From the NCBI RefSeq assembly GCF_033954835.1, contig NZ_CP121471.1:2350501-2414500 (forward strand): a stretch of 64,000 nt of DNA. The letters run 5' to 3'. Each line of letters begins with the position of its first letter. Position 1 is the first letter of the stretch. The stretch is from Thiorhodovibrio frisius. GTDB taxonomy: Bacteria > Pseudomonadota > Gammaproteobacteria > Chromatiales > Chromatiaceae. The notes beneath the pieces were generated by a model, which ran no database searches, was not told where the DNA came from, and saw only the letters and a program-made list of their open reading frames with translations. Below are positions 8,886 to 62,380 of this stretch, piece by piece. The position numbers were made by a program, and so were the translations under genes.

Positions 8886-9084
8886 AATCCTCGTCCCTAT
8901 TGATTTTGGTCCCGATTGTTGTCCCAATCGTTAGCTTGCCATTTTCCCTAGGTCGGGCCGTTCACCGCAAGCGGAATCTTTTGCCCTGAGCCATACCGAT
9001 CACAAATAGAGCGACCGGTTTTGGGCCTGACCCAATGCAAGCCGGTACCCCAGGGCCATCGGCAGCCCCGTGCGGAACTTGCGC

Positions 9085-9090
9085 TATACT
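9085..9090 (+). promoter_or_regulatory. Candidate -10 box for the glycosyltransferase operon
   Basis: TATACT lies 52 bp upstream of the ATG at 9142, without a convincing -35. Its position argues against the upstream GTG at 9070 as the true start of the glycosyltransferase. Confidence 0.35.
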
Positions 9091-9141
9091 CTGCGCCCCG
9101 GCATCGGTGCCGGTTTCCAAGTTTTCGCACAGGCTCCATCC

Positions 9142-10158: not shown

Positions 10159-10194
10159 TGGCGGTCTGCTGGAGGCTGTGGTGATGGAGGGACA

Positions 10195-12706: not shown

Positions 12707-12738
12707 TGATTCCTTGATTTCGACCTGGGAGGCGAAGG

Positions 12739-13092: not shown

Positions 13093-13208
13093 GAGATCGT
13101 CAAGAGAAACGCGCGGCAAGAGGTGATCTGGGCATGGCGCGGGCACCGATTGGACCTTGGCGAAAGAGATGCACGGTGCTGGCGAGACTCCTGCCACTGC
13201 TCATCCAG

Positions 13209-13679: not shown

Positions 13680-13857
13680 GGGCTTGCCTCCAGGAAGGGG
13701 GGAAGGGCGGACACGAGCAAAATCATGGCGATTTTTGTGCACGGATTCCGCCTGCGTTTGCGTGACTGCACTATCATAGTCGCCAATCATGGGGCGCGGG
13801 AAATCCTGATTCTGGCCCTGTTCTCCCAGTGGGGCACGATGCGACCCTGAGGGCGTA

Positions 13858-17144: not shown

Positions 17145-17268
17145 GCAGTCTGGCCAGCAAGGAGACTGGCGTTCTGCGAGTTCCGAAGTCATGCTTCGTC
17201 AAGGGGGAGGGCTGTCATGCCGGTTATGGCGGCGAGGGTGCCAATGAACAAAGATCAGGAGGTTCTTA

Positions 17269-17758
<490 letters not shown>

Positions 17759-18007
17759 ATGGGAAGTGCTGTTCTAAGCGTCCCTTCTGCGGAGGATAGG
17801 AAATCCAAGCCACCCTGAGCGTCCAGGTTGGCCGGACGACGAACGGTAGCGGGGGTGGGATGCGCCGTCAACGTCCAACTGCGGGGCTAACGGACGTCGG
17901 GGCGGTGCAGGCGCGCGCGTTCCGGGGTGCTGGCGCGTGCATCTGCTGGGCAGCGTGCCACCGGCAGACGAGAGGGGCTGCACCGTTGCCTGCGAGAGAG
18001 ACGGCGG
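17759..18007. other. Gene-free stretch downstream of the IS91 fragment
   Basis: No convincing gene. It holds a possible hairpin (ACGTCC ... GGACGT around 17871-17896) near where the end of the IS91-type element would be expected, but I cannot define a terminus. Confidence 0.35.
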
Positions 18008-18690
18008 CTACCAGGCGACGCGCTGATCGAACTCGAAGTCGGGCTCGGGCTGCTGGAGGAGGTCCCAGTCCGGCATCGGCTCGGGTGCCTCGTCCCAGGC
18101 GGGCGGTCTGCGGGCGGGCGAGATCGGGGGTGGACGCGGTGGCTCACCGATGTGGGTGAAGATCTGCTCGACGGGCGCACGGCCTCGGTGATGAAGGCAA
18201 TGATGTGCATGTCCGCGCCGCGGTTGGGGCAGGTTTTTTCAACCGCTAACAACAGCCGCGCCAGCAGCATGGCCCAGAGGTAGCGCGCTGGGGAGCGCGC
18301 GTTCGGGGCCGGTGCGCGACGGGGTGCGGCGAGCTCGGCGCAGGCGCTCGGGTCGTCGGTCAGTTCACGCCCCAAGACGACGGCCGCCGCACGCAGGGGC
18401 GCGTTTGGCGCGAGCACGCCATGGTAGCGATGGCGGTGGCGCCTGGGCGGGGGGATGAGGGCCGCGAGATGGTCGATCAGCTCCAGTGGCGTGAGCGTCA
18501 GCGCCGTGATGCCATTGCGCTGGGGCTTCGGTAATCGGTAGACGACGCGTTCGGCATCGAGCCGCTCCAGGCGCTCGAGCGCGAACGGGGGCCGAGCACA
18601 GTAGCGCAGCAGCCGCTCCAGCCCGGTGCGATCGTGCGCACCGACGCGCACCGCCGCATCCAGCGAGAAGCCGCTGTTCTCCGTTCTCTT
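18008..18690 (-). pseudogene. IS91-family (Y2) transposase, 5'-truncated and frameshifted
   Basis: The minus strand reads GFSLDAAVRVGAHDRTGLERLLRY and then a stretch ending HRHRYHGVLAPNAPLRAA, which is the C-terminal half of IS91/IS801-type single-strand transposases. Homology begins abruptly near 18690, so the N-terminal catalytic part is missing. After MHIIAFITEA (near 18185) the frame is wrong. Shifting by one base restores a typical C-terminus (QIFTHIGEPP ... PMPDWDLLQQPEPDFEF) that ends at the stop at 18008. The copy is therefore dead. Positions 18691-18955 hold no gene I recognise. Confidence 0.75.
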
Positions 18691-18960
18691 GATTCCTTTT
18701 CCTACTGCGCCGCGAGCTGAAATCAGGCGATCACGGCCACTGCCACCGTTGCCCCGCTCCCCATCAGCATCCCCGCCGAGAGCCATCCCCACGAAATAAC
18801 GTGTTCGGGCGGGGCCGGAGACGTCAGTCTTTGAGGCGAGCCTGCCGCTGGTGACCTAGACTTCAGGCCAAATCCCTGCGCCCGCAGCAAAGCCGCCGTC
18901 TGCACCACGACCTGCCGGAGTGCGGTGTTCTGTCGGTCTCGATGATTCTGCAACGATGCA

Positions 18961-19233
18961 CTAGCCTTTTAAGTCGCGGTAGAAATTCTCATGCGGTCCC
19001 AAGCTCAGCAAGGTGCAGAGGGCGTCATCCCGGGTGTAGGCAAGGAGGAAGGTTTGATGAATGCAATCGAATTTGAAGACGCGAACACCAGCAAGGTCGC
19101 CTTTTTTCTCTTCGCCACTTGCCGGGTCGGCAAGGATGGTGCGAATGGCGTCATTGACAGCCTCGCGCTGATTGGGATGAAGCCGCTTGTATGCGCGTTT
19201 GAAAGCAGGGCGTTGGGCGAGTCGATGTGTCAT
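18961..19233 (-). CDS. RelE/ParE-superfamily toxin
   Basis: A 90-residue toxin-like protein (RPAFKRAYKRLHPNQREAV, a central VRVFKFDC, and LLSLGPHENFYRDLK at the C-terminus) of the RelE/ParE/YafQ fold. Most relatives cleave mRNA on the ribosome, some inhibit gyrase; the target here is unknown. The ATG overlaps the stop of the upstream antitoxin gene by 4 bp (ATGA), the classical arrangement of a type II module. Confidence 0.85.
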   Translation of the reverse strand: MTHRLAQRPAFKRAYKRLHPNQREAVNDAIRTILADPASGEEKKGDLAGVRVFKFDCIHQTFLLAYTRDDALCTLLSLGPHENFYRDLKG

Positions 19234-19442
19234 TGCTCTGGCAAGTCGAAGGGCTCGGAGGATTCCTCAAGCGCCTGCAGGGTATCGCGCACAAACTCAA
19301 TGGGCAGGTCAGGATTGTCGAGCGCGGCGCGGCCAACCTTGGCCCAGTAGGCGATCTGTTGTGGAATCGAGCGCATTTCGGCGCTGGCCTGTGACTTGGC
19401 GGCGGCATAGAGATTGTCGTCAATGCGGATAGAAACGCTCAT
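19230..19442 (-). CDS. ParD-like antitoxin
   Basis: A 70-residue protein beginning MSVSIRIDDNLYAAAKSQA, with SIPQQIAYWAKVGRAALDNPD, the pattern of ParD-like ribbon-helix-helix antitoxins. It precedes the RelE/ParE-type toxin with a 4-bp overlap. Expected to bind its own promoter and neutralise the toxin. Divergent from the next antitoxin-toxin pair, with about 250 bp between them. Confidence 0.82.
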   Translation of the reverse strand: MSVSIRIDDNLYAAAKSQASAEMRSIPQQIAYWAKVGRAALDNPDLPIEFVRDTLQALEESSEPFDLPEQ

Positions 19443-19695
19443 CTTGAAAATCCTGTGGCGATCTGCGACAAATGCAGTTTATGTTGGATTGCTGGGTTTG
19501 CCAAGGCACAAGTTTTGGTGAAATTTGAGGATTCTGGAGTGAGCCATGGGCGATGACGGTTTGTCTTGGTGCATACGCGTGCAGCAGCAATCGTCTGCAG
19601 GTCTTGGCGACAAGCAGTTTTCGTCGCCATGCCGCTTGCGCGCGAGTGCCAGGTTCGGCATGCTGCAACGCATATGCAATGCATCTGGGGTTTAG

Positions 19696-19971
19696 ATGAA
19701 AACGGCAACCATTCCTTCCCTGCGGGTTGATCCACACCTGCGGCGTTGCGCGGAAAGCGTCTTGCATGAAGGGGAGAGCCTATCTGGCTTTGTCGAACAG
19801 GCTATCCGTGACAGCATCGCCTATCGCCAAGCTGAACAAGAATTTATCGCACGCGGGTTGAAGTCGCGGGATCAGGCGCGCCAGTCGGGGCGCTATATCG
19901 AGGCGTCTGCCGTGGTGGATCGGCTGCAAGGAATGCTCGACGAGGCCAAATTCAGCGAACCCTCCGGATGA
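19696..19971 (+). CDS. Antitoxin, ribbon-helix-helix type
   Basis: A 91-residue protein with a short basic/beta start (ATIPSLRVDPHLRRCAESVL), GESLSGFVEQAIRDSIAYRQ typical of RHH antitoxins, and a helical tail (GRYIEASAVVDRLQGMLDEA) that probably wraps the toxin. The next gene overlaps it by 4 bp and encodes a ParE-like toxin. Confidence 0.8.
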   Translation: MKTATIPSLRVDPHLRRCAESVLHEGESLSGFVEQAIRDSIAYRQAEQEFIARGLKSRDQARQSGRYIEASAVVDRLQGMLDEAKFSEPSG

Positions 19972-20276
19972 GGTATCGGGTTCGCTTCACTCCAGAAGCC
20001 GAGGCCGATCTGGTTCGGCTCTATGCCTTTATTCTTGAGAGAAATCCAACAGATTTGGCAGTGGTGGAGCGAGCGCTTGATGCGATTCGCGCCGCATTGA
20101 CCACACTGGAGCGCTTGCCATTTACTTGCCGCAAGGCTGCGACCCATTCGCCGTTTCTGCGCGAGCTGCTCATCCCATTTGGCGCGACTGGCGATGTCGC
20201 GCTATTTGAAATTGATGATGCGGAGACAGTCACGGTGCTCGCTGTTCGCCATCAGCGCGAGAATGACTATCATTAG
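19968..20276 (+). CDS. ParE-family toxin
   Basis: A 102-residue protein starting MRYRVRFTPEAEADLVRLYAF and ending VTVLAVRHQRENDYH, a typical ParE/plasmid-stabilisation toxin. ParE toxins generally poison DNA gyrase. Second gene of a coupled antitoxin-toxin pair (ATGA overlap). Confidence 0.86.
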   Translation: MRYRVRFTPEAEADLVRLYAFILERNPTDLAVVERALDAIRAALTTLERLPFTCRKAATHSPFLRELLIPFGATGDVALFEIDDAETVTVLAVRHQRENDYH

Positions 20277-20307
20277 AGCAGGGGGGGCATTAGAGCAGGA
20301 GGGCAGT

Positions 20308-20577
20308 ATGGGCGATAACGGCTCAGCTTGGTACATACTCGGTCTTTCGACGGGCTTTATTTTTGGGCTTGCGATTGCTGCCCCGTCGTGGCACAGCGTG
20401 GTGGTCCCGCTGAAGAAGACAGAGCACGCGGCGCTCGTGCAGGCCACCGCAAACGCCAGGATGGAAAGGAGAATTTGCCTGCGTGTGCGCGAGGCATTCA
20501 TCAAATCCCTCGGTTCGGAGACAGACCTCGATTTTTTGTGCGCCGACCCAATCGATGCGACGCCTCCGGAGCGCTGA
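20308..20577 (+). CDS. Small single-helix membrane protein, unknown
   Basis: Not recognised. An 89-residue protein with one N-terminal membrane helix (about residues 7-25, ILGLSTGFIFGLAIA) and a soluble tail containing two cysteines. AGGAGG six bases before the ATG at 20308 supports translation. It is squeezed between the ParE toxin (31 bp) and the mrfB-like gene (9 bp) on the same strand, so it may be co-transcribed with either. Confidence 0.6.
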   Translation: MGDNGSAWYILGLSTGFIFGLAIAAPSWHSVVVPLKKTEHAALVQATANARMERRICLRVREAFIKSLGSETDLDFLCADPIDATPPER

Positions 20578-20586
20578 CCGCAACCC

Positions 20587-22014
20587 ATGGCAATACAGGG
20601 CCAGGGTCAAGCCATGAGCCTGAAATCCCGGCTTGACCGGCTGCGCCAGCAGCCGGCGCCGATGCCAGCGCCTTCAACGCCGGTCGACCCGCATCCGGTT
20701 GAGGCGGAATCATTGGATTCGAACCCGATTGCCTCAGATCCGCTCGGTTTGGCTCACGGCGTCCTGTCTCCCCAGCCCCAATCCTCCGGCGGTTCCGCCA
20801 ATGCGGACAGGGGTGAGCCTGGTCTAGCCGAACGCATCGCGCGACTGCGCCCACATGTGCTCCAACCGTCCATGCGCCAAGGTGACGAACGCGCCTTGGC
20901 CGAAATTCTGGGTGCCGCGCAGGTGGCGCCCGGACTTTTGTTTTTGCAGCAACAACTTGACGCGACCCGACCTCATGGCCGGTTCGCCCCCGCACAGGCG
21001 GTTGGCGCTGCGAATCCCCTGGGCGAGCTAACCGACTTGGCGCCTGCCCCGCCCGAGACTTGGTGCTTCCTGGACACCGAAACCAGCGGTCTGGCCGGCG
21101 GCACCGGCACCTGGGTGTTCCTGTTTGGCGCCGCCCGTTTCGTCTCCGAACCGGGCGAGGGAGGCCCGCCACTGACACTGGAACTGGAGCAATATTTGCT
21201 CACCCGCCTGGACGCCGAAGCCCTGATGCTCGAGCACATGGCCAATTCCCTGGCGGATGCTAGCTTGCTGGTCAGCTACAACGGCAAATCCTTCGACATC
21301 CCACTGCTCCTGACCCGCTGCCGGCTAGCTGCCATGGGCGGTCCGCCTGCCATTGGCGATCTCGCCCAGCGGCTTGAGCAGTTGGCGCATCTCGACCTGC
21401 TGCACCCGGTGCGCCGCGCCTTCGCGAAACGCTGGCCGGATTGCCGTCTGGCAAGCGTCGAATCCCGCCTGCTCGCCTTTAATCGCGGCCAGGATCTCCC
21501 CGGCAGCGAAGCCCCTGCCGCCTGGCTCGACTGGCTGCGCCACGGTGACCTGACGCGACTGCCTGCCGTGGTCGAGCACAACCGCAAGGATCTGCTCTCC
21601 GTCGCCGCGCTCATGCCGGCCCTAGTAAGCGTTTATCGCCAACCGCTGCGCCATGGCGCCGACAGCGCCAGCGTGGCCGCGCATTGGATCAAACGCGGCG
21701 ATATCGAACAGGCACGCGCGCTGCTGGAGTCCAGTGTGAACGGCCAAGCTGCCGAGCCCGAGGCGATTAGACTGCTCGCACAGCTGCATCGCCGTGATCG
21801 CAATTGGCCGCGCGCGGTGGAACTCTGGGAGATGTTAGCGCGCGACAACCATCCCGGCGCGCTGGAGGCCCTGGCCAAATTCCACGAGCACATCGCCCGT
21901 GACCCGCAACGCGCCCTCGGCTATGCCAGCCGTTTGCCGGCTGATCCAGTAAGCGAGCACCGGCGCCAGCGGTTGAGGATTAAACTGAAAACCCCAAGCG
22001 AGCGGCTCTTATGA
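20587..22014 (+). CDS. mrfB: RNase H-like 3'-5' exonuclease with TPR-like tail, MrfB/YprB-like
   Basis: A 475-residue protein. A disordered Pro/Ser-rich region (about 20-85) precedes a DEDD-type exonuclease domain: WCFLDTETSGLAGGTG near residue 160 (D and E), LLVSYNGKSFDIPLL near residue 230 (D) and VEHNRKDLLSVAAL near residue 330 (D). The C-terminal 120 residues are helical and repeat-like (HWIKRGDIEQARALLE, LHRRDRNWPRAVELWE). This is the architecture of YprB/MrfB, partner of the helicase MrfA in B. subtilis. Start is 20587 or the second ATG at 20614. The likely partner helicase is at 14736-17144. Confidence 0.87.
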   Translation: MAIQGQGQAMSLKSRLDRLRQQPAPMPAPSTPVDPHPVEAESLDSNPIASDPLGLAHGVLSPQPQSSGGSANADRGEPGLAERIARLRPHVLQPSMRQGDERALAEILGAAQVAPGLLFLQQQLDATRPHGRFAPAQAVGAANPLGELTDLAPAPPETWCFLDTETSGLAGGTGTWVFLFGAARFVSEPGEGGPPLTLELEQYLLTRLDAEALMLEHMANSLADASLLVSYNGKSFDIPLLLTRCRLAAMGGPPAIGDLAQRLEQLAHLDLLHPVRRAFAKRWPDCRLASVESRLLAFNRGQDLPGSEAPAAWLDWLRHGDLTRLPAVVEHNRKDLLSVAALMPALVSVYRQPLRHGADSASVAAHWIKRGDIEQARALLESSVNGQAAEPEAIRLLAQLHRRDRNWPRAVELWEMLARDNHPGALEALAKFHEHIARDPQRALGYASRLPADPVSEHRRQRLRIKLKTPSERLL

Positions 22015-22198
22015 CGCTTCGCCGAGCGTGCAGGGAAAATCGACGGCGGTGTTTACTGGGGGGATGAGTCTACGCTCACTTAGTGCACAAAAACCGGTCG
22101 TTTTCGCAGGCGCTGATGTCCTGCTCGCGAATGACACCGCTGAGCCGCGGCGTCGACAGCTCCAGCCTGGACGCGCATTGGATCAAGCCGTTCCGCCA

Positions 22199-37159: not shown

Positions 37160-37424
37160 AAGGAATCTAAGGATACCGGGAAACCAATCGGGTCTGGTGC
37201 CTTAGTTTCCGGTAAAAACACGTAATCGACTGAATAATAAGTATATTTAAGCCTTTCAATGCGGGCGTCTCCGGGGCAAATGCCTCTTAAGGCGAGCTAA
37301 TATCGCCTGCCTTGTTTCAAAGTGTGACGTAAAAATCACATCACTCTTTTATTTGAGCCAAAGCTAGAGATACACCAGCCGCGCCTAAGCTTTTTCCGGA
37401 CTTTTCTTTTTGTGTATCCCAAGA
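37160..37424 (+). ncRNA. Candidate structured leader RNA (or sRNA) before the GGDEF gene
   Basis: Starting at the predicted transcript start there is a long hairpin: TACCGGGAAAC (from 37174) pairs with GTTTCCGGTA (to 37214), a 10-bp stem with one bulged G and a 20-nt loop. A second hairpin, AGGCGA(N7)TCGCCT, spans 37290-37308. A dyad TGTGA(N8)TCACA lies at 37323-37340. I compared it by memory with c-di-GMP riboswitches and saw no match to their cores. It is AT-richer than its surroundings. Confidence 0.4.
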
Positions 37425-39275
37425 ATGACAGCGATCACGAGAATGAAAACCAGCGACTCTCCGGATCTTGACGCGCAAGGGGCTTTTTTCCGTCCCCCTA
37501 ATCCCCCTAAGGGCACCGTCCTGGATTCGGCCAATACAGAAATTTCCAGCCGATCCAACCGCGAGGTCGGCGCATCCGCATTTGTCGGCGGTCAAGCACG
37601 ACACCCCCTGTCACTCGCCGCAGCAAAAGTCGGCACCTACATGCTAGACCTTTCGTCCGAGCGCATTCACGGCGATTCACAGTACTTCAGTCTGCTTGGC
37701 TTTCCGCCGACAACGAGGGATCTGCCGTTAGGGGCATTCCTGGCGAAACTGGATTGTGAAGGCTGTCGCAGCTACCAAAAGGTGCTTGAGGACGTTCGCC
37801 AGCAGCTCAGCGACCAGCTCGAGTTATGCATTTTTGTGCATCGCAATGAAAATGATTCTGTCCCGGTCCTTGATCGCGGGCTTGTATCCATTGAGGACGA
37901 GCGCGTTCTCATCGTGGGCGCGCAGATCGACCTGACGGGGCTTACCACGCCATTGCCGCAGTTCCAGCATCTGGCATCGCACGATCAGCTGACCGGACTG
38001 CTGAGCCGCCACGCCATCTGGCGCCTTGTTGAACAAGCACACCATCAGACCCAAGGAACGGGGTCCGCTTGCGCCATTGCCGTGCTGGACATTGATCACC
38101 TAAAAGAAGTCAATGATATACACGGACCAATTGTCGGCGACAAGTTACTGTCCGAATTGGCGACCCGGCTTGATCAGCTGTTTCGGCCACGGCAAATCAC
38201 CATGGGCCGCTGGGGTGGTGATGAGTTTCTCGCCATTGCATCCGATTTGGATGAGCTTGGTCTAGTCCGGGAAATCGACAACGCACGCCAAGCGCTCGTC
38301 GACGTGCCCACCCTGATCGATGGCACCCATGTATCGGTTACTTTCAGCAGCGGTGTGACTTCCGTTTGCCAGCCCATGGATACCACGGAGCAGATTCTCG
38401 CGCGCGCGGACGTCGCTCTCTATCGCGCGAAACGGGATGGCTGCAATCGTGTATATGGCAGCGGCAGGGCTACGGATAACCGCACCATGTCGCTGGCAAT
38501 TTTGGTTCAGGATGCAGTGCGCACAGCTCGCGTGACCCCGGTGTTTCAACCACTGGTGCGGCTCAGTGACCAGCGACCTGTCGCAGAAGAGGCGTTCTCG
38601 CGCATTATGGAAGGTGGCTCGCGTCTCTTGAATGCAGCTGCCTTTATCGAAGTTGCACTCCAGCTCAAACTCTTGCACCGCATTGATCACATGCTATTCG
38701 ACGCGGTGATCGAACGCATCACCTATCCACCATCGAGTGCCTCCTCCCCTTTGCCGGTTAACGGCGAGGCCAAGCCCATCTTCGTGCATATCTCGGAAGA
38801 CCTTATTCGGCATCCAGCCACACTGAATGAAATGGTCAAAACCCTAGCGGACCATCCCTTGTCGGCGGTAACGCCCGTGGTTTTGGTGCTCAATGAGCAA
38901 ATCGCCACCGAGCACACGAAGACGCTCCCAGGCATCCTCCAACCGATGCTCGACCTAGGCTGCAAGCTCTCGATTTCTGGCTTTGGCGACAGCGACAATT
39001 CCTTGCAAATGCTTTATGAGGGTTTTCCTGTCAGCTTCCTGTCCGTCGATCCTTCCCTGGTTCAGGAAGCGCTGAAGTCTGAGCGCGCCCGAAAGGTGAT
39101 AGCCGAGATTCAGCTAACCGCGAGAGAGTTAGGCATCACCACCATTGCCAAGCAACTGCAGAACCCAGAAACTTTGAAAATGGTCATCGAGCTGGGTCTG
39201 GACTGGGGGCAAGGCTACCTACTCGGCGTGCCCACGGACCCATCCTGGCCTCTATCTGCCCGGTCGGGCGTCTAA
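37425..39275 (+). CDS. GGDEF protein with degenerate EAL domain
   Basis: About 616 residues. The N-terminal region (about 70-180) looks like a PAS-type sensor (LDLSSERIHGDSQYFSLLGF). The GGDEF domain has an intact RWGGDEF near residue 265, so diguanylate cyclase activity is likely. The EAL-like domain (about 365-610) has AEEAFSRI in place of the catalytic EAL motif and GFGDSDNSLQML in place of the DFG-type loop, so phosphodiesterase activity is doubtful. It ends in GLDWGQGYLLGVPT. Start may be 37425 or 37443. A decayed relative of its EAL part lies at 48.2-48.7 kb. Confidence 0.87.
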   Translation: MTAITRMKTSDSPDLDAQGAFFRPPNPPKGTVLDSANTEISSRSNREVGASAFVGGQARHPLSLAAAKVGTYMLDLSSERIHGDSQYFSLLGFPPTTRDLPLGAFLAKLDCEGCRSYQKVLEDVRQQLSDQLELCIFVHRNENDSVPVLDRGLVSIEDERVLIVGAQIDLTGLTTPLPQFQHLASHDQLTGLLSRHAIWRLVEQAHHQTQGTGSACAIAVLDIDHLKEVNDIHGPIVGDKLLSELATRLDQLFRPRQITMGRWGGDEFLAIASDLDELGLVREIDNARQALVDVPTLIDGTHVSVTFSSGVTSVCQPMDTTEQILARADVALYRAKRDGCNRVYGSGRATDNRTMSLAILVQDAVRTARVTPVFQPLVRLSDQRPVAEEAFSRIMEGGSRLLNAAAFIEVALQLKLLHRIDHMLFDAVIERITYPPSSASSPLPVNGEAKPIFVHISEDLIRHPATLNEMVKTLADHPLSAVTPVVLVLNEQIATEHTKTLPGILQPMLDLGCKLSISGFGDSDNSLQMLYEGFPVSFLSVDPSLVQEALKSERARKVIAEIQLTARELGITTIAKQLQNPETLKMVIELGLDWGQGYLLGVPTDPSWPLSARSGV

Positions 39276-42733: not shown

Positions 42734-43687
42734 TCAGTGAAAAATAGTCTCGGGCGTCTCGGCGGTGAGGATGCGTTTGGACCATTGCAGGAGTTCTTCG
42801 GGGTCGGCTGCCTCAATGCGCTCGCGGTGCGCTTCGAGCGAAGCTGAGCCGAATTTTTCTTCCAGCTGCATCATCAAGATCGTGGCTTCGCCCTGCTGCA
42901 CGCCCTTCTCAATCCCGGCTTGCTCAAACGTGGTGACATAAGGCATCTGTCGTTGTTCCTCGTAGGCATAAAGTTCTTGGCGAAACGCCGCCTCCAGATC
43001 TTTGGGCAGGCGGATCATCCAGTCAATGAGGCGTAACACCTCCTCAATGCGCGCGCGTTCGTGACCGCGCTCATACATCAAGCGCATCAGGCGGAATTTC
43101 CAGCGTTTCAGTGTCTCGGCATCGTCGGTGACCTTGGCGCGGATCTGCGCCATCACCACCAGGGCGAAGACGTTGTCGCTGGCTTCCAGCTCCGCCCAGC
43201 GCTCGGGCTCGGCGTAGTCGAGCAGTTTGACCATCGGGAAGTCGAATTGCACCCGACAGTCCCACAGCGCGGCGCTGTAGTGCTGGGGGCGGAAGCCTCG
43301 GTCGGTATCGGCCAGCACCGCCAGGCTCGCCACCGGCACCTGGTAGGCATCGCGGATTTTGTAATTGTAGGTGAAGATCCGCTCGGCAAAGTCGCTTTCC
43401 GGATCACCTTGCACTTCCACATGGGCCAGCACCCAAACCGGCGTCTCATCGCGGCGCGTGACGCCGACGAGCTTGTCGGCATAGCGCCTGGTAGTACTGG
43501 CCTCGCGCACGATCTTCTGGAATTCCTTGTCGAGAAACTGCATGCCTTTGGACCAGTCAATCTCGGCATGGATGGCCGGGAACAAGAGCGCGAGAAACTC
43601 CGGGAATAACTTCTCCAGGGCCTCCTTCCACGGGCTGTCGTAGTCGGGTTTCTCGCTGGTGTCAGCGGCTTGGGTGTCGGCAGTCAT
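42734..43687 (-). CDS. Rpn-family nuclease / DUF4351 protein
   Basis: About 317 residues. An N-terminal PD-(D/E)XK-like Rpn region (PWKEALEKLFPEFLALLFP, ADKLVGVTRRD, WVLAHVEVQGDPESDF, where E and Q fit the nuclease core), a helical middle, and a C-terminal DUF4351-like segment (ILMMQLEEKFGSASLE). Rpn proteins are recombination-promoting nucleases often annotated as transposases and abundant in mobile regions. ATG 43687 lacks a good ribosome site. 42598-42733 holds no clear gene. Confidence 0.8.
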   Translation of the reverse strand: MTADTQAADTSEKPDYDSPWKEALEKLFPEFLALLFPAIHAEIDWSKGMQFLDKEFQKIVREASTTRRYADKLVGVTRRDETPVWVLAHVEVQGDPESDFAERIFTYNYKIRDAYQVPVASLAVLADTDRGFRPQHYSAALWDCRVQFDFPMVKLLDYAEPERWAELEASDNVFALVVMAQIRAKVTDDAETLKRWKFRLMRLMYERGHERARIEEVLRLIDWMIRLPKDLEAAFRQELYAYEEQRQMPYVTTFEQAGIEKGVQQGEATILMMQLEEKFGSASLEAHRERIEAADPEELLQWSKRILTAETPETIFH

Positions 43688-43786
43688 GGGAGGAGTGTAG
43701 CCGATTCCCTGGCGGGGGTGGAGCGCTGCGCCGACGCCTTCTCGCTTCGCAGCGCATTGATGGCTAGACGTGGGAAAATAATTCGA

Positions 43787-45370
43787 GCCTGGACCGAATG
43801 GCACTAAGATAAGCGCAAGGGCTTGAAAACAATTGGGTAAGGCTGGCAGCTAGGGTGATACGGTGAAATCGCCAAATCAAACCAACCACCCGAGGAGCCA
43901 GCCTTCATGCATGCTAACCATCGCCCGGGCTTGGAGCAACAGAAACAGATTCAGCGTCGCGCCGAGGAGACCGACTCCTACGCGTTCTTCAACCTGTTGA
44001 CCAGTTCGCAACTGCTCGACGGAGTCGAGGCACTCTTGCCAGCACATCGCGAGCGCGTGTTTCCGCCGACGGAGACATTGTCGACGTTTCTGGCGCAGGT
44101 ACTCGCCGACGATGGCAGCTGCCAGCAGGCGGTCGACGACGCGGCGATCAAGCGCATCATTGGCGGTCTGCCGCGCTGCGCGGCGAGCACCATGCTTACT
44201 GCCAGGCCCGCGCACGCTTGCCGGCAGAGGTGGTCTCGACGCTGGTGCGCCAGGTGGGAGGCATGATCGGTGCGGGCACACCGAACTGGTGGCATGCGTG
44301 GAATCGCCCGGTGCGCCTGGTCGATGGTGCGACCATGACCATGGCTGACACGGAGGAGAACCAAGCGGTCTATCCGCAGCCGAGCAGCCAGAAACCCGGC
44401 TTGGGCTTTCCGATCTGCCGCATGGTGGCACTGATCTGTTTGGGCAGTGGCGCACTGCTCGATGCCGCCACTGGCCCGTGCGAAGGCCAGTGTGGAAGCA
44501 GGGGCAGCGATGAGCAGACGTTGCTGCGCGGCATGCTCGATGCGCTCGCTGCGGACGATATCCTGCTCGGCGACGCCTTCTACCCGACCTACTTTCTGCT
44601 CTGCGACCTGGTGCAACGGGGCGTCGATGGGGTGTTCGAGCAGCACGGCGCACGCAAACGCAGCACCGACTTCAAAACCGGGGAGACGCTCGGCGCGCGT
44701 GATCATTTGGTGGTGCTGGAGAAACCAAAAAAGCGACCGGATTGGATGACGCAGGAGTAGTACGCGCAAGCTCCGGAAACGCTGAAGGTGCGCGAGTTCG
44801 CAGCCGGTGGGAAAATCATGGTCACCACCTTTCTGGATGCCAAAGCGGCTCCGAAGAACAAACTCAAGGTGCTCTACCTGCGCCGCTGGAACGTGGAGCT
44901 GGATCTGCGCAACATCAAGACCACCCTCGGCATGGCACAACTGCGCTGCAAGACCCCGGAGATGGCCATCAAGGAACTGTGGGTCTACCTACTGGCCTAC
45001 AACCTGATCCGCTTGCTGATGGCCCAAGCCGCTTTGCTGGCCGACCAAGTTCCCAGGCAACTGAGCTTCAAGCACACCGTGCAGGTCTGGTCATCCTGGC
45101 AGCAACGCGGCGGGGCAACGCCCAATGGTGTTTGCGTGCTTGCCGTACTGAGTCTGATTGCCGAGCCGCGCGTCGGTCTGCGACCCGGTCGCATCGAGCC
45201 GCGGGCGCTGAAACGTCGAGCCAACGCCTACCCGCTGCTGACCAAGCCGAGGAAAGCCGCTCGCGCTGAAGTCCGCGAACATGGACATCCGAAAAAACAG
45301 CGCTGAATCAAACCGGTATCCAGCTCATCGCAATGCGCCATCGCTTATCTTAGTGCCATTCGAGCCAGGC
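43787..45370 (+). mobile_element. IS4-type insertion sequence, inactivated
   Basis: The ends are 29-bp inverted repeats with two mismatches: 43787-43815 begins GCCTGG and shares the 21-bp core CGAATGGCACTAAGATAAGC-G with the reverse complement of 45342-45370. Total length is 1584 bp. I find no clear target-site duplication. The right end lies 4 bp from the stop codon of the vapC gene, so insertion spared that gene. Confidence 0.8.
43907..45306 (+). pseudogene. IS4-family transposase with frameshift and nonsense codon
   Basis: The first frame (43907 on) reads RRAEETDSYAFFNLLTSSQL and is normal to about 44190. A one-base deletion there (CACC-ATGC, expected ACCGATGC) pushes it out of frame. The second frame resumes at AYCQARARLPAEV and runs to an in-frame TAG at 44758 (TQE-stop-YAQAPE), where a Glu or Gln codon is expected. 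The remainder (VTTFLDAKAAPKNKLKVLYL, then RWNVELDLRNIKTTLGM with the conserved Y/E region) is intact to 45306. DDE transposase, not functional in cis. Confidence 0.87.
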
Positions 45371-45374: not shown

Positions 45375-45773
45375 TTAATTCCAGTTCTCCAGCCGCAGAC
45401 CCGTCACGCGGGAGAATTCGCTCTCATTGTTTGTCACGAGCACCAGACCCAGCGAACGGGCATGACCGGCAATCAACTGATCGTAGGGGCCAATCGGGGT
45501 TCCCTGCTTTGCAAGCTCGGCACGAATCTGGCCCGCATGGGCAGCCGCTGAGTCATCCAATGGCAAGACCTCCATCCGCGCCACTAATCCGTCCAGACTG
45601 CGCATGTTGCGCTCCGGATTGGATGATCGTTCGGCACCGAAGACCAATTCCATGTAGGTTATGCTGGAGATGCACATGCGGCCGTCTTGCTTTTTGAATG
45701 CCTCGCGCACCGAGGCAGGGCGGTTCTTCATCGTATAGATTACGATGTTGGTGTCGAGCATGTACCTCAGCAT
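45375..45773 (-). CDS. vapC: VapC-type PIN toxin
   Basis: A 132-residue PIN RNase: MLDTNIVIYTMKNRP (Asp), SITYMELVFGAERS (Glu), GPYDQLIAGHARSLGL (Asp) and VTNNESEFSRV. This is the VapC/MvpA pattern that cleaves initiator tRNA in enteric relatives; the target is not known here. Its ATG overlaps the antitoxin stop by one base. Confidence 0.9.
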   Translation of the reverse strand: MLRYMLDTNIVIYTMKNRPASVREAFKKQDGRMCISSITYMELVFGAERSSNPERNMRSLDGLVARMEVLPLDDSAAAHAGQIRAELAKQGTPIGPYDQLIAGHARSLGLVLVTNNESEFSRVTGLRLENWN

Positions 45774-46057: not shown

Positions 46058-46103
46058 GGTCCCGCTTCGCTCTTCAAGATATCATGTCGTTTCGGTGGAT
46101 AGC

Positions 46104-46225
46104 TTTGGGCCGAGTAACAGTCCCGGGGGACGCCGTGAATACATCCCTGTAGGCTTCATGGCGGCATCGCCCGATCAGATCCCGGGGCGCCAAGACCCCC
46201 GCGCCCGTCACCCGGCCCAAAACCG
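46104..46225 (+). repeat. Dispersed palindromic repeat, copy 1
   Basis: About 120 bp. Outer arms are imperfect inverted repeats (TTTGGGCCGAGTAAC... and ...GTCACCCGGCCCAAAA). The core reads GACGCCGTGAATAC, then CCCTGTAGGCTTC and GGCGGC. The same core and arms occur inverted at 62274-62380. Intergenic REP/MITE-like element. Confidence 0.75.
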
Positions 46226-46296
46226 GAAGCTCATCTGGGATTCACGCACTTTTTTCCGGCTTTGGAATTGGTGCCTGTCGTGAATGGAAAAGAAAA

Positions 46297-46475: not shown

Positions 46476-47372
46476 TTATTGTGCGATGTGAGTTTTTTCG
46501 CGGCGCCTAGCGGTCAGTCCACCCAGCGCACCGAGCAGACCTAGGCCTAGTAGGCTCATCGTTGCCGGCTCGGGAACTGCGGCGTCGGGGCTGGTGAGCC
46601 GCACGTTATCGATGGATAGTGAGTCGTAGTAGGAGCTGGCACCGATGAACCACATGTAGCTATTGCCGCCCATTTCCGCGGCCGAAAGAACAGAGGTTGA
46701 TTCATAATCGAGAACCTCGTTTCCGTCTGCGTCATACATCGACCAGTCTACCAGTACCTCATCGTTCTGCGTCGGGCTGAACTCCCAGCTGAAGGTGTAC
46801 CAGTTGGCCGCTGTTACGGTAAACAACGGGTCATCATTGTTGTAGGCCTGCTGGACATAGTAAGAGGGATCGTTCCCTTCGCTTGATGTGGAATGGTGCG
46901 GATTGGGCACGGTGACGCCAAGCGCATAACTCGCAGGGGAACCCTGACTAGCAGGTCGGATTTGGTAGGCGCCGACGTGGAATAGGTTGTCTTGACGATA
47001 AGGATTGTCGTCTACGTCTGTGATGGCTTGCGTAAACTCGAAGCCATAATTACCGTTAGCGGCCGAGGCCGGGTCAAGAAACACATCAACGCTTGACATC
47101 CAGGTGGGACCGATATCATTGCGCTGGCCGCCAAGCCACGAATACGAACCTCCACTACCGAAGTTAAGGTAATTATTGTTTGGGTCGCTTGGGTCGCTAA
47201 TGATAGTGCCGGACGACCAGTCGGTTGATCCATCTTCAAAGTCTTCGTCATACAACACTGCGCCATGCGCTGTGCTGGCCATGACTAGTATCCCTAAAAC
47301 CCCTATCCTCCAAGCGGAGGTGACGCTAAGGTGCCGCATGGTTGGAACGGTAAGACTTGAAAGCTTTCTCAT
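46476..47372 (-). CDS. PEP-CTERM sorting-signal protein
   Basis: About 298 residues. An N-terminal signal peptide (WRIGVLGILVMASTAHGA, about residues 22-38) precedes a Ser/Gly/Asn/Tyr-rich beta-sandwich-like domain with carbohydrate-binding character (DFEDGSTDWSSGTI, NLFHVGAYQIRP, DSLSIDNVRLTSP). The C-terminus is the PEP-CTERM tripartite signal: VPEPATMSLLGLGLLGALGG plus a basic tail ARRREK. Such proteins are cleaved by exosortase and exported with exopolysaccharide. ATG 47372 follows GGAG. The upstream region shows a sigma-54 promoter with a distal dyad. No exosortase is in the window. Confidence 0.9.
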   Translation of the reverse strand: MRKLSSLTVPTMRHLSVTSAWRIGVLGILVMASTAHGAVLYDEDFEDGSTDWSSGTIISDPSDPNNNYLNFGSGGSYSWLGGQRNDIGPTWMSSVDVFLDPASAANGNYGFEFTQAITDVDDNPYRQDNLFHVGAYQIRPASQGSPASYALGVTVPNPHHSTSSEGNDPSYYVQQAYNNDDPLFTVTAANWYTFSWEFSPTQNDEVLVDWSMYDADGNEVLDYESTSVLSAAEMGGNSYMWFIGASSYYDSLSIDNVRLTSPDAAVPEPATMSLLGLGLLGALGGLTARRREKTHIAQ

Positions 47373-47607
47373 GGTCACTCCAGATATTGCCTTGCATTGA
47401 AAAACTGGGAAAACTGGGACAAACCACCTCTAAATCTCAGTTCTGACACCGTAGGATCTGAGTGAAAAGTGGTAAGTCCGGCCCCTGGAACTTGAGATGG
47501 CTGTGCGAGGTGATCCGTTGGTACCGCTGTTCGCTCGCTTGCGGATGCCCGGACCTTTTCTGTCCGGATAGCTCGCCCCGCGCGGCACATCGTTCGATTT
47601 TAGGTAA

Positions 47608-47624
47608 GGCAAGAGTTAGGCCAA
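47608..47624 (-). promoter_or_regulatory. Sigma-54 (-24/-12) promoter of the PEP-CTERM gene
   Basis: On the minus strand TTGGCCTAACTCTTGCC has GG and GC separated by exactly 10 bases, and TTGC at -12. Transcription would start near 47597, giving a leader of about 225 nt with a CCGGAC/GTCCGG hairpin around 47550. A dyad 64 bp further upstream could bind the activator. Confidence 0.65.
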
Positions 47625-47685
47625 AATAATATTTCATCAATTATCAGATACTTAAAAAATGACTCGAATTGTGAACGGCCGGGGT

Positions 47686-47702
47686 TGTAAAGTTTTCTGA
47701 CA
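47686..47702 (-). promoter_or_regulatory. Dyad TGTAAAGTTTTCTGACA, copy 1 (putative enhancer site)
   Basis: Imperfect palindrome of the type TGTnAAAnTTTTnnnACA. Its centre is about 97 bp upstream of the predicted sigma-54 start, the usual distance for an activator of RpoN. PEP-CTERM genes in some bacteria are controlled by the PrsK/PrsR pair with RpoN; assignment to PrsR is an inference. Confidence 0.55.
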
Positions 47703-47841
47703 CCTAAAACGCCTATTTTTGTGCCCTGCTAACGCTTATTCGCAAAAGTAGACAGTTTTCGTCGGGTTGGATGTTTCTTCTTTTCAATGACTTGGGGTTT
47801 GGACGGTGCGGCTTGAGTCGCTTTTCGGTGTTTTTCGCTGT

Positions 47842-47858
47842 TGTAAAATTTTCTGACA
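47842..47858. promoter_or_regulatory. Dyad TGTAAAATTTTCTGACA, copy 2
   Basis: Sixteen of 17 bases equal copy 1, and ACC/ACCT follows in both. No sigma-54 box was found beside it on either strand. Confidence 0.5.
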
Positions 47859-48008
47859 CCTCATCTTGCGATTTCGTCGCTTGGAGACGTTTCGGGGTGC
47901 GTTATTGGTATAGTGAGTTTTCCGTGTTATTTTGAAAAGCGTTATAAAAACAGATTGATAAAAGATTATTTCGGCGTGCCTCTGGTGCTATGGCGGCAAT
48001 TTTTTGAG

Positions 48009-48025
48009 TGTAAAAAATTTCGACA
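48009..48025. promoter_or_regulatory. Dyad TGTAAAAAATTTCGACA, copy 3
   Basis: Same orientation and same flanking CC as copies 1 and 2, with an altered centre. Lies in the gene-free stretch 47703-48223, where I find no coding potential. Confidence 0.45.
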
Positions 48026-48223
48026 CCCTTGGCGTGGTTGGCGGGTCTGGTGTCGCGAAGTTCCCAGGACAGAGAAGGTTTCACACGGGTTTCTCGGTTC
48101 CGGAGCCTCTGATTTTGGTCTTGGTCGCGACAGCGTCCGTGTGTCTGTATGGAACTGAGGTCATGTTTCGGGCGGGCTTGGACGGAGTTGGTGCTGAGGT
48201 CGGTCCGTGCGGGTGGTTTTGCC

Positions 48224-48740
48224 TCAGCCGGCGGAAACCTGGGGGTCCGAGCGGGCGGAGAGGGGCCATGCGGGGTCGGTGGGGACGCCGAGGAGGTAGC
48301 CTTGGCGCCAGTCGATTGCCGAGGTCCTTTGCTAGGGCGAGGGTGTCGGGGTTTTGGATCTGTTTGGCGATGGTGACAATGCCGAGTGAACGGGCTTGGC
48401 TTTGGATGTCGACCAGGGTGGCGAGGGCGCGGTTCGTTCAGGGTCGAGGGGTGGCGGATCAGATCCTCCGACGCCTGAGCAAAGATCGCGGTGTGATCGG
48501 CAGGTGAAAGGCTCGCGGCTTTCCCGGGGGGGGGTACATCAGCCGCTCGAGGGCCGCCTCGAACAGCATTAGGTCGATGCGGTGCAAGAGCTTGAGCTGC
48601 AGCGCGACCTCGATGAAGGCGCCGGCATTGAGCAGGCGGGCGCTGTTGTCTTTGATGCGCGCGAAGGCCTCCTCGCCGACGGGGTGGCGGTCGTTGAGGC
48701 GAGCCAGCGGTTGGAAAACCGGCGTCACGGTCGCCATGGA
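48224..48740 (-). pseudogene. Decayed EAL-domain gene, paralogue of the GGDEF/EAL protein
   Basis: The minus strand from 48740 reads VTPVFQPLARLNDRHPV, then ALQLKLLHRIDLMLFEAALE, closely matching residues about 365-430 of the protein at 37425-39275. After a C-rich run near 48530 the frame is lost. ASEDLIRHPSTLNE, SLGIVTIAKQIQNPDTLALA and RQGYLLGVPTDPAWPLSARS appear in successive frames up to the stop at 48224. About 85 codons of the intact domain are missing in the middle and all of the GGDEF part is absent. Confidence 0.8.
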
Positions 48741-48745: not shown

Positions 48746-48762
48746 TGTAAAAAAACCTGACG
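48746..48762. promoter_or_regulatory. Dyad TGTAAAAAAACCTGACG, copy 4
   Basis: Diverged copy of the same 17-bp element, nine bases upstream of the EAL pseudogene remnant. It follows the same pattern TTGTAAA(N7)TGAC. Confidence 0.4.
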
Positions 48763-48866
48763 CTTGGCGGGTCGCAGGCGCGGTTATGTTTCCTTGTGCG
48801 TGTTTTGGTGTTTATAACCCGGACGTGGCGGCGGCTGCCAATGCGCGAGTTTTGTGTTCATACGCG

Positions 48867-48919: not shown

Positions 48920-51703
48920 CTAGAGGTCCTTGCGCCCCGCCTGCTGCAGCGCTGCCTGCGCTGCGGCCAGACGCGCCACCGGCACGCGCGGTCCGGAGCA
49001 GCTCACATAATCAAGCCCGGCCTGGTCGCAGAAGGCGATGGATGCGGGGTGGCCGCCGTGTTCGCCGCAGATGCCTACGTGCAGGTCCGGCTTGACTTTG
49101 CGGCCCCATTCCACCGCCAGTTCCATGAGTTTGCCGACGCCTTTGACATCCAGCACCTCGAAGGGGTTGTCGTGCAGGACGTTGCTCTGGTTGTAGAGCG
49201 GCAGGAACTTGTTTTCGGCGTCCTCGCGCGAGAAGGAGAAGGCCGCCTGGGTGAGGTCGTTGGTGCCGAAGGAGAAGAACTCGGCTTCTTCGGCCAGGGA
49301 TTCGGCGCGCATGCAGGCGCGCACGACTTCGATCATGGTGCCGAACTTGAATTTGACCGGGAAGCCATAATCGGCCTTGACCTGTTCGTGCAGTTCGTCC
49401 ACATAGGCTTTGACTTTGAGCAACTCCTGTACGGTGCAGACTTGGGGGACTTTGATCTGCGGGTGCGCGTCCAGGCCGGCTTTTTGGCATTCCGCAGCGG
49501 CTTCGAGGATGGCGCGAATTTGCATCTGGTAGATTTCCGGGAAGGTGATGCCTAGGCGCACGCCGCGATGGCCGAGCATGGGGTTGGTTTCGTAGAGCAC
49601 ACGGACCTTTCGCAGCATGGCCTCTTTCTTGACGATGGCCTCCTCGACCAGCATGGGATCGAGGGTGTGGCGCAGCGTATCGAACTCCCGGCGGGTTTCT
49701 TCAGCCGCATGCAGTAGGCCCATGGCGCCGGCCAGCGCCGTCATGCCGCGGGTGGACTGGGCGAGGCCGCGCAGATCAGCGATGTCCTGTTCGAGCTGAT
49801 GCTCATCGGGCAGAAATTCATGGATCGGCGGGTCGAGCAGGCGGATGGTGACCGGATGCGGGGCCATGACCTCGAACAGCTGCCGGAAGTCCTCGCGCTG
49901 CAAGGGTAGCAGCCGGTCGAGCGCGGCCTGGCGGGTGTCGGGTGTTTCGGCGACGATCATTTCGATGACGATCGGCAGGCGATCAACCGCGTTGAACATG
50001 CGTTCGGTGCGCGCCAAGCCGATGCCGACGGCGCCGTATTTGAGCGCCGTGCGGGCATCGTCTGGGGTGTCGGCATTGGCCATGACCTTCAGGCGCGCTT
50101 TCTCATCGGCCCAGGACAGCAGCACGGATAGTTCCTCGGTGAACTCGGGCTCGACTGTGGGAATGGCGCCGAGATAGACCCGACCGGTGGAGCCGTCGAT
50201 GGTGATGGTGTCGCCTTCCTTGAAATGGGTGTCGCCGACGATGGCCTCGCGCCGGCTGACATCGACGCTGATGCCCTCGGCTCCGGCCACGCAGGGCTTG
50301 CCCATGCCGCGCGCGACCACAGCAGCGTGCGAGGTCTTGCCGCCGCGCGAGGTGAGAATGCCCTGAGCGGCGAAGAAGCCATGAATGTCCTCGGGTTTGG
50401 TCTCCTCGCGCACCAGGATGACTTTCTGGCCCATGTCACGGCCCATCTGCTCGGCGCGGTCGGCGTCGAACACTGCGATACCGGAAGCAGCACCCGGTGA
50501 GGCGGGCAGGCCGGTGGCCACGGCATCCGCCTTGAATGCCGGGTCGAGCCGGGGGAAGAGCATTTGCTCGAGCGCGGTGGGGTCGATACGCAGCAGCGCC
50601 TGATCCTTGGTGATCAGTCCTTCCTGCTCCATCTCGACTGAAGTGCGCACCAGGGAGACGGCGTTCATCTTGCCGTTGCGGGTTTGCAGGCAGTAGAGCT
50701 GACCGCGCTCGATGGTGAACTCGAAGTCCTGGATCTCTTTGTAATGGCTCTCGAGTTTGTCGCGCAGCTCGTCAAGTTCCGTGGCCATTTGTGGCATCTC
50801 GACGCGCAGACGATCGAGCGGCTTGGGCGTGCGAATGCCGGCGACCACGTCCTCGCCCTGGGCGTTGACAAGATACTCACCGAACAGTTTGTTCTCGCCC
50901 GTGCCCGGGTTGCGGGTGAAGCCCACGCCGGTGGCGGAATCATCGCCGCGGTTGCCAAAGACCATGGTGACCACGTTCACTGCGGTGCCATTGGCCATGT
51001 CCGGGGTGATCTTGAACTGGGTGCGATAATCGACCGCGCGCTTGCCTGACCAGGAGTTGAAGACGGCCTTGATGGCGATCTCGAGTTGCTGGTAGGGGTC
51101 GCTCGGGAAGGGGTGGCCGGTGGCCTCCTCGACCACCTTCAAAAAGCGCTCGCTAATGTCTTTCAGATCCGCCGCCGTGAGATCCACATCATGCTTGGCG
51201 TGCGCAGCCTGTTTGACTTGGTTGAATTCTTGGTCAAACTTTTCATCCGACACTCCGAGCGCGACCTTGCCGAATAGCTGAATGAAGCGCCGATAAGCGT
51301 CATAGCCAAAGCGCGCATCGCCGGTCGCCCGAATTTCGCCCTGCAGGGTGTCCTGGTTCAGGCCCAGATTCAGAATGGTATCCATCATGCCAGGCATGGA
51401 CATGGCCGAGCCCGAGCGTACCGAGACCAGCAGAGGTTTTTCAGGATTGCCAAAGCCCTTGCCGGTTTTCTGCTCCAGTGCTGTCATCTCGGCGCGCACC
51501 TGGTCCATCACTCCGGCGGGCAGCGCATGCTTCACGTCGTCGAGATAGGTCAGGCAGGCATCGGTGGAAATCACGAAGCCGGGCGGCACATTCAGGCCAA
51601 TCTGGGTCATCTCGCACAGATTCGCGCCCTTGCCGCCAAGCAGCTTTTTGTTCTTGCCGTCGCCGTCTTCAAAGGCAAAGACCCATTTTTGTTGCGTTGA
51701 CAT
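48920..51703 (-). CDS. ppdK: Pyruvate, phosphate dikinase
   Basis: A 927-residue enzyme interconverting pyruvate + ATP + Pi and phosphoenolpyruvate + AMP + PPi. The N-terminal nucleotide-binding domain begins WVFAFEDGDGKNKKLLGGKGAN. The phosphohistidine domain has GGKTSHAAVVARGMGKPCV near residue 465. The C-terminal PEP/pyruvate barrel has FSFGTNDLTQ and GICGEHGGHP, ending DYVSCSGPRVPVARLAAAQA with the catalytic Cys. GGGAGA precedes the ATG. Single-gene transcript with its own terminator. Confidence 0.96.
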   Translation of the reverse strand: MSTQQKWVFAFEDGDGKNKKLLGGKGANLCEMTQIGLNVPPGFVISTDACLTYLDDVKHALPAGVMDQVRAEMTALEQKTGKGFGNPEKPLLVSVRSGSAMSMPGMMDTILNLGLNQDTLQGEIRATGDARFGYDAYRRFIQLFGKVALGVSDEKFDQEFNQVKQAAHAKHDVDLTAADLKDISERFLKVVEEATGHPFPSDPYQQLEIAIKAVFNSWSGKRAVDYRTQFKITPDMANGTAVNVVTMVFGNRGDDSATGVGFTRNPGTGENKLFGEYLVNAQGEDVVAGIRTPKPLDRLRVEMPQMATELDELRDKLESHYKEIQDFEFTIERGQLYCLQTRNGKMNAVSLVRTSVEMEQEGLITKDQALLRIDPTALEQMLFPRLDPAFKADAVATGLPASPGAASGIAVFDADRAEQMGRDMGQKVILVREETKPEDIHGFFAAQGILTSRGGKTSHAAVVARGMGKPCVAGAEGISVDVSRREAIVGDTHFKEGDTITIDGSTGRVYLGAIPTVEPEFTEELSVLLSWADEKARLKVMANADTPDDARTALKYGAVGIGLARTERMFNAVDRLPIVIEMIVAETPDTRQAALDRLLPLQREDFRQLFEVMAPHPVTIRLLDPPIHEFLPDEHQLEQDIADLRGLAQSTRGMTALAGAMGLLHAAEETRREFDTLRHTLDPMLVEEAIVKKEAMLRKVRVLYETNPMLGHRGVRLGITFPEIYQMQIRAILEAAAECQKAGLDAHPQIKVPQVCTVQELLKVKAYVDELHEQVKADYGFPVKFKFGTMIEVVRACMRAESLAEEAEFFSFGTNDLTQAAFSFSREDAENKFLPLYNQSNVLHDNPFEVLDVKGVGKLMELAVEWGRKVKPDLHVGICGEHGGHPASIAFCDQAGLDYVSCSGPRVPVARLAAAQAALQQAGRKDL

Positions 51704-52072
51704 CTGGCTCTCCCTACAGTGGTTTCAATTGGAATGATTTCTTACGACCGAGGTTGGACCCGGGCCGACCCCGTTTAATTCCAGGCAACTCCCGGCCAAC
51801 CCCCGGGTCAACCGCTGGCCAAATCGGAAAGAGCCCTGGAGCGCGCTCCCTCCGAGCTAAACTTGACCATGGTGCGCGGATGATGCCGGGCTATTTCAAC
51901 CGAGTTTTCTGGTCTTTGCCAAGTTGTTCCGTTCCTCTGCGGTTGTTCGGCCTGGTGATGCCGGATTCGGGCCAGATTCAGGCCTGATTTGGGTTAGCAT
52001 AGTGCGTCTGAAAGTGCGGATCTTTGGGAGCTTTAAGAGAACAGGGCTTAAAATGTACGGGAATCACCCTTA
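51704..52072. other. Divergent intergenic region, ppdK / complex-I-like trio
   Basis: No gene I can support. Contains a TAAAAT at 52049-52054, 19 bp before the ATG of the first membrane gene, as a possible -10, and C/G-rich imperfect repeats (51755-51815) without an obvious role. Confidence 0.35.
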
Positions 52073-62273: not shown

Positions 62274-62380
62274 GTTCTGGGCCGGGTGACGGTCACGGGG
62301 GTCTCGGCGGCAGGACGCCGCCGGGAAGCCTACAGGGAGGTATTCACGGCGTCTCCCGTGGCCGTCACCCGGCCCAGAAC
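62274..62380 (-). repeat. Dispersed palindromic repeat, copy 2
   Basis: Inverted arms GTTCTGGGCCGGGTGACGG and its near-exact complement at the other end, with the same core as copy 1 at 46104-46225 in opposite orientation. It lies between the divergent DUF4139 and Uma2 genes. Confidence 0.8.

Follow-up and report, generated by a model that had tools for sequence, protein, structure and literature searches.

A three-dyad sigma-54 promoter of the PrsR/RpoN class before the PEP-CTERM gene of Thiorhodovibrio frisius, probably orphaned of its regulator

The stretch of DNA analysed in this work (the window, 64,000 nucleotides from the chromosome of Thiorhodovibrio frisius) carries a gene encoding a PEP-CTERM protein, a promoter region with a sigma-54 box and an array of three dyads, remnants of an EAL-domain gene and the gene ppdK (Table 1). 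The open reading frame of the PEP-CTERM gene extends over 46476-47378 on the minus strand, and the ATG at 47372, which is preceded by GGAG, is the preferred start. Two models recognise the tail of the protein, TIGR02595 with 22.2 bits (cut-off 16) and PF07589 with 26.3 bits (cut-off 20.7), and no known domain was found beyond it. The substrate tail belongs to the PEP type and not to the VPLPA type: TIGR02595 is over its cut-off, and none of the 17 models listed for the tail at E up to 10 is a VPLPA-CTERM model. Relatives of the protein were found neither in 209 other genomes of the order (E up to 1e-6) nor in the plasmids and phages searched, nor among solved structures (E up to 1), and the one match among viral contigs is limited to the tail. 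An AlphaFold model made from the single sequence (mean pLDDT 39.3) was set aside.

Table 1. Features of the locus, with their positions in the window
Feature	Position	Strand	Evidence or remark
PEP-CTERM protein gene	46476..47372	-	ORF, TIGR02595 and PF07589; 298 aa with a hydrophobic stretch near the N-terminus; tail VPEPATMSLLGLGLLGALGGLTARRREK
Stretch between -12 element and ATG, 236 nt	47373..47608	-	Sequence
Sigma-54 -24/-12 box TGGCCTAACTCTTGC	47609..47623	-	Pattern TGGC-N7-TTGC
Proximal dyad GTGTCAGAAAACTTTACA (Haft motif 1)	47686..47703	-	62 bp above the box
Second dyad GTGTCAGAAAATTTTACA	47842..47859	-	156 bp above the first
Third dyad GTGTCGAAATTTTTTACA	48009..48026	-	167 bp above the second; 18/18 letters equal to the distal site of the G233 array
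Remnant, C-terminal end of EAL-domain gene	48242..48375	-	DNA match to the ppdK-side GGDEF-EAL gene of G233
EAL domain remnant (ORF 48459-48737, 92 aa)	48434..48737	-	PF00563, 39.7 bits, cut-off 31.3
One-mismatch dyad GCGTCAGGTTTTTTTACA	48746..48763	-	Directly above the EAL remnant
ppdK, pyruvate phosphate dikinase	48920..51703	-	Pfam; syntenic anchor common to both congeners

Downstream of the PEP-CTERM gene lies a gene for a PIN-domain (VapC-like) protein (45375-45773), and one of the two congeneric genomes used for comparison (G232 and G233), namely G232, carries another PIN-like ORF, judged by eye, beside its ppdK. An insertion element that includes a DDE transposase (PF01609) and reads as several ORFs occupies 43787-45370 and has a 99% identical stretch in G232. 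The ORF at 42734-43804 (356 aa) has no Pfam match at E up to 0.001, and its family has many matching places in both congeners. A dispersed repeat with the core CCGTGAATACATCCCTGTAGGC is present in the window at 46094-46244 and 62328-62349, in dozens of places in G232 and in several in G233; an 18-letter part of it gave no match in the paper search.

A sigma-54 box with TTGC at -12, lying 236 bp before the ATG, had been proposed in the original prediction, and our analysis confirms it: the core GGCCTAACTCTTGC begins at 47622, with TGGC at 47623 and the end of TTGC at 47609. The 17-bp imperfect palindrome that had been placed about 97 bp before the predicted transcript start is also present, as the 17-mer TGTCAGAAAACTTTACA (47686-47702, centre 47694), and by the -12 rule the transcript would start near 47597. 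This dyad is real, but two further copies had been missed, and the exact motif GTGTC-N7-TTTACA is found three times on the same strand (47686, 47842 and 48009). A riboswitch in the long leader, for c-di-GMP or another ligand, was considered and dropped, since Rfam at the gathering threshold gave no match in the 64-kb window; the one sub-threshold match (E 3) within 47340-48250 lies outside the leader.

To estimate the expectation by chance, the 852-bp stretch 47379-48230 was dinucleotide-shuffled 5000 times. The exact dyad motif, observed three times, occurred in none of the shuffles and the box pattern TGGC-N7-TTGC in 153, and the composite of dyad and box was again absent from all 5000. When up to two mismatches are allowed, the 64-kb window has 9 dyad matches against a shuffle mean of 5.5, and 12 of 100 shuffles reach 9; dyads of this quality are no commoner than in shuffles, and the exact copies alone stand out. 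In the whole genome TGTCR-N6-TTTACA has four exact matches; three of them make up the array, and the remaining one (L026) overlaps with ORFs of both strands. With at most one mismatch this pattern is matched 76 times and the reversed control pattern 57 times, and degenerate copies are therefore mostly background. The pattern TTTACA-N40..70-TGGC-N7-TTGC has three matches in the genome, of which the two outside this promoter overlap with ORFs that are 541 and 547 aa long. A genome-wide comparison of dyads with other PEP-CTERM genes is uninformative in this organism, because the gene at 46476-47372 is the single one found by TIGR02595 at E up to 0.001.

The elements belong to a promoter class that is already known. 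Haft et al. (2006; PMC1569441) described, in the text drawn on here, an arrangement that precedes 99 of 167 PEP-CTERM genes from proteobacteria, in which motif 1, of 17 nt, ends in TTTACA, is repeated in some cases and is followed, after a spacer with a mean of 62.8 nt and a range of 32-92, by a sigma-54 motif (motif 2) that lies 23-221 nt before the gene. These authors proposed PrsR as the activator, and in their phylogenetic profile the DNA motif was matched with PrsK, PrsR and PrsT over 13 species of proteobacteria. Judged from this text description and not from the sequence logo, the T. frisius promoter fits the class in its three exact TGTC-N7-TTTACA copies of motif 1, its 62-nt spacer from TTTACA to TGGC (near the mean and inside the range), its -24 GG/-12 GC box and the position of a lone PEP-CTERM gene after a large intergenic region, and the repetition of motif 1 resembles their case of Rhodospirillum rubrum. 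It departs from the description in a box-to-start distance of 236 nt, which is above the maximum given there, in the spread of three motif copies over 340 bp, in an exosortase that is XrtD and not XrtA, and in the absence of PrsR and PrsK by curated models. The pepA gene of Aquincola tertiaricarbonis is likewise a PEP-CTERM gene with a -24/-12 promoter, and PMC9850573 reports that its start was mapped, that it depends on RpoN1 and that an enhancer is predicted upstream; however, pepA adjoins prsT, whereas the gene described here stands alone and PrsK/PrsR were not found. We conclude that the promoter, probably orphaned, is a variant of this known class.

In order to place the promoter among others of its kind, the pattern GTGTC-N7-TTTACA-N45..75-TGGC-N7-TTGC was surveyed in the genome collection, where it matched at least 117 stretches, 80 of which were made into loci (L078-L157). 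Among the matches listed most are titled as proteobacteria, the exceptions being Caloramator (L143), a Streptomycetaceae MAG (L136), a Thermodesulfovibrionia MAG (L114) and two whose title says only 'bacterium' (L092, L134). A simple tail rule found a PEP-CTERM-like ORF downstream in 44 of the 80 loci, or in 44 of the 69 that have at least 450 bp of downstream DNA (11 have less). Two or three of these 44 calls are doubtful: in L105, L125 and L139 the call was assigned to a small ORF, and while L105 also holds a 244-aa ORF with a PEP tail, L125 and L139 are doubtful. The rule also omitted at least three related-looking tails (L093, L096 and L128). The distance from the box to the start is 236 nt in T. 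frisius as against 0-125 nt, measured to the first possible start codon, in 42 of 44 comparable promoters.

The dyad-to-box gap forms three narrow peaks at about 52, 63 and 74 bp across many species, with 19 of the 80 loci at 49-53, 46 at 60-66, 12 at 71-75 and 3 elsewhere; the loci are not all independent, three of them being from one MAG. The gap of 62 in the window lies inside the main peak. The phase statistic of the gaps is 0.72 (best period 11.3, nearly flat between 11.0 and 11.7) and the maximum in 2000 uniform draws was 0.404. A one-peak null is the fairer control, and under it the troughs at 54-59 and 67-70, which hold 3 gaps, would hold 32.9 on average and at least 14 (20000 draws). 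The step between peaks is about one helical turn, as expected if the activator and the polymerase must face each other. In the open-licence literature no title or abstract start was found on such spacer phasing or on an orphan array.

At least two dyads, with at most one mismatch, are present in 16 of the 75 surveyed sites that have 400 bp upstream and three dyads in 3 of the 75, as against 0 of 59 control stretches, and triple arrays are uncommon but not unique. In 10 of the 16 multi-dyad sites a further dyad lies 102-122 bp upstream. Pfam was run on ten ORFs behind composite sites (nine of the 36 without a PEP call and the doubtful L139), which gave SpoIIE/PAS, a PAS histidine kinase, a methyltransferase, a TPP enzyme, a sortilin-like protein and ArgJ, and four ORFs without a family. 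None of the ten has a GGDEF or EAL domain, and the link to c-di-GMP described below therefore rests on one congener. Composite sites are found upstream of the PAS/SpoIIE phosphatase (L126:2224-4896) and of the PAS histidine kinase (L138:1975-4536), and the PrsR-type regulon may thus reach signalling genes.

The regulators and the sorting enzyme of the class were then sought in the genome of T. frisius itself, which is one contig of 5,417,120 bp, 98.25% complete. The best protein for PrsR (TIGR02915) scores 354.6 bits with a cut-off of 502.6, and the best for PrsK (TIGR02916) 85 bits with a cut-off of 300. For XrtA (TIGR03109, cut-off 208) the sole exosortase over the PF09721 cut-off scores 199; this protein, encoded at C1:3.88 Mb, is XrtD (TIGR04152, 572.8 bits, cut-off 400), which is filed as specific for VPLPA-CTERM proteins. 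The organism thus resembles the XrtD/VPLPA-CTERM system in its one exosortase over cut-off and differs from it in the PEP type of the substrate tail. Nine encoded proteins have an AAA stretch of the sigma-54-activator type, which suggests that sigma-54 (RpoN) itself is present. A recognition-helix signature defined in this analysis, RP[TS][LM]Y, is found in 30 of 30 PrsR loci from the surveyed genomes and in 0 of these nine proteins.

PrsR is over its cut-off in 106 of the 210 genomes of the order, T. frisius included in the count, and in 44 of 50 tested genomes that bear composite sites, these 50 having been chosen by hand, with isolates favoured, from the 78 genomes of the survey. All six genomes without PrsR are titled as MAGs, and one of them has a truncated match. 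The control by PrsR and RpoN that had been expected from the architecture is therefore partly supported: the build of the promoter and its 62-bp gap agree with it, but PrsR and PrsK over cut-off are not found in this genome. The original observation is correct and more extensive than first noted, and the promoter class was rightly named, whereas the presumed regulator goes too far.

The genomes of T. frisius (G000), G232 and G233 are single contigs of 5.42, 5.47 and 5.48 Mb, and T. frisius, T. litoralis and T. winogradskyi are described, in the passages of PMC10609205 cited here, as having circular chromosomes without plasmids. Of the two congeners, G233 has PrsR over the cut-off and G232 does not. 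In G233 the scores of PrsR, PrsK and PrsT are 659 (658.8), 706 and 740 bits, and the locus has the order sugar transferase, prsT, ATPase, prsK, prsR, chain-length determinant, tyrosine kinase and XrtA-type deacetylase; the ATPase resembles the XrtA-associated family (273.9 bits, under the cut-off of 324.5). The right flank of this locus continues in T. frisius and in G232, which have a common left flank that is unlike that of G233, and the prs locus is therefore absent at that place from both.

A similar array is found in G233 beside ppdK, with dyads at 12546, 12379 and 12221 and a box at 12142 of L277, and an intact GGDEF-EAL gene is placed behind it (L277:10126-12840). The spacings (the last from dyad to GG) are 167, 158 and 79 in G233 and 167, 156 and 80 in the window, and when the two upstream regions are aligned locally the score is 49, against at most 36 in 50 shuffles. 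In the 17 kb around ppdK of G232 neither a dyad nor a match to the EAL remnant was found. From the array before the GGDEF-EAL gene, the sequence suggests that PrsR may also govern c-di-GMP turnover in G233.

The EAL remnants of the window sit between ppdK and the array, and by place and direction they look like the gene that the array precedes in G233, although on sequence a second GGDEF-EAL gene of G233 is the slightly better match. This second gene (C1:792161-794005, at 0.79 Mb) has no dyad in the surrounding 20 kb. The C-terminal remnant has 75% DNA identity to the ppdK-side gene and about 71% to the second; the stretch 48434-48729 has 70% (163 bits) to the former and 48529-48738 has 77% (177 bits) to the latter, and in all the pieces score 177, 91 and 37 bits against the second gene and 163 and 103 against the ppdK-side gene. 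The remnant as an orthologue of the ppdK-side gene on sequence was dropped, since the second gene matches as well or slightly better. The one-mismatch dyad is possibly a relic of the EAL gene's own array.

We read this arrangement as the possible remains of an ancestral pair of array-driven genes, one encoding a GGDEF-EAL protein and the other the PEP-CTERM protein, of which one was kept per species. A duplication followed by promoter capture would give much the same picture, and the unusual length of the leader gives room for it. Under either history the shared array would argue for PrsR in the common ancestor, and hence for a loss here. On the other hand, the PrsR locus could be a gain in G233, because T. 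frisius and G232 share the flank without it.

Other differences between the three genomes were seen in this region. An intact GGDEF-EAL gene of the window (37410-39275) has 72% DNA identity over about 1.3 kb to the array-driven gene of G233, and no exact dyad lies near it within the window. The stretch of G232 that matches window positions 7931-22188 ends about 1.9 kb from ppdK, and some 26.7 kb of the window (22189-48920), the PEP-CTERM gene included, are missing at that place in G232, being possibly an island or a rearrangement. The ppdK gene (compared over 48921-51714) is 98% identical to that of G232 and 87% to that of G233, and the far side (53.4-57.5 kb) matches G232 at 68-85%, a contrast in identity that hints at a recent exchange of ppdK.

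In the working model of such a promoter, dimers of a PrsR-type response regulator would bind the TGTC-N7-TTTACA dyads and form oligomers; with about six helical turns of DNA looped out, these would remodel the RNA polymerase-sigma54 complex at the box 62 bp downstream. The other two dyads, which lie 156 and 323 bp above the first, would raise the local concentration of the activator and could give cooperative help. We consider it probable that the T. frisius array is a PrsR/RpoN enhancer-promoter that was orphaned by the loss of PrsK and PrsR and is now silent or under another activator. As the cognate PrsK/PrsR and XrtA were not found, the promoter would be an orphan, most likely with little or no activity unless some other sigma-54 activator drives it. 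The intact ORF and the three intact dyads are unlike long neglect, and the loss may therefore be recent or the site still in use.

Continued use would be explained if the promoter were alive and had been taken over by another sigma-54 activator that recognises the dyads, for instance an NtrC-like protein (L052-L058). The nine activator-type proteins supply candidates, and all three dyads are intact, as are the gap and the ORF; against this, none of the nine has the signature present in all 30 PrsR loci, NtrC-family activators bind different sites, and outside the array the genome has one exact dyad, which overlaps ORFs. We therefore regard the takeover as unlikely, if still the strongest of the alternatives. 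A broader reading receives about as little credit from us: the array would have outlived PrsR through another sigma-54 activator, while the substrate moved from XrtA and PrsKR to XrtD in one species, and the same array design would in this genus also serve a GGDEF-EAL gene, with PrsR coupling the export of a matrix protein to c-di-GMP turnover.

The promoter would be an ordinary one if PrsR and PrsK were present but had been missed through a plasmid, an assembly gap or strong divergence, which the completeness value of the genome would allow, and incompleteness is a likely cause in the six MAGs without PrsR. However, the assembly is a single contig, and the passages of PMC10609205 cited above report for T. 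frisius a circular PacBio chromosome with more than 500x coverage and no plasmids; moreover, PrsR of the congener scores 658.8 bits and the best protein here 354.6. We hold a missed regulator to be very improbable. Least credible of all is that dyads and box are chance intergenic sequence and that the gene uses another promoter: the box alone does appear in some shuffles and the start codon is unusually far from it, but three exact dyads and a box stand in the expected order, the composite was never reproduced by shuffling, and the array spacing is common to G233.

The retention of the motif in triplicate in a genome that, by curated models, has neither PrsK nor PrsR makes this locus a natural test of whether such promoters strictly need PrsR. 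If the promoter does strictly need it, the PEP-CTERM gene should be dead in T. frisius and should be switched on by the prsKR of the sister species. Moreover, the regulon in one species of the genus appears to include a c-di-GMP enzyme.
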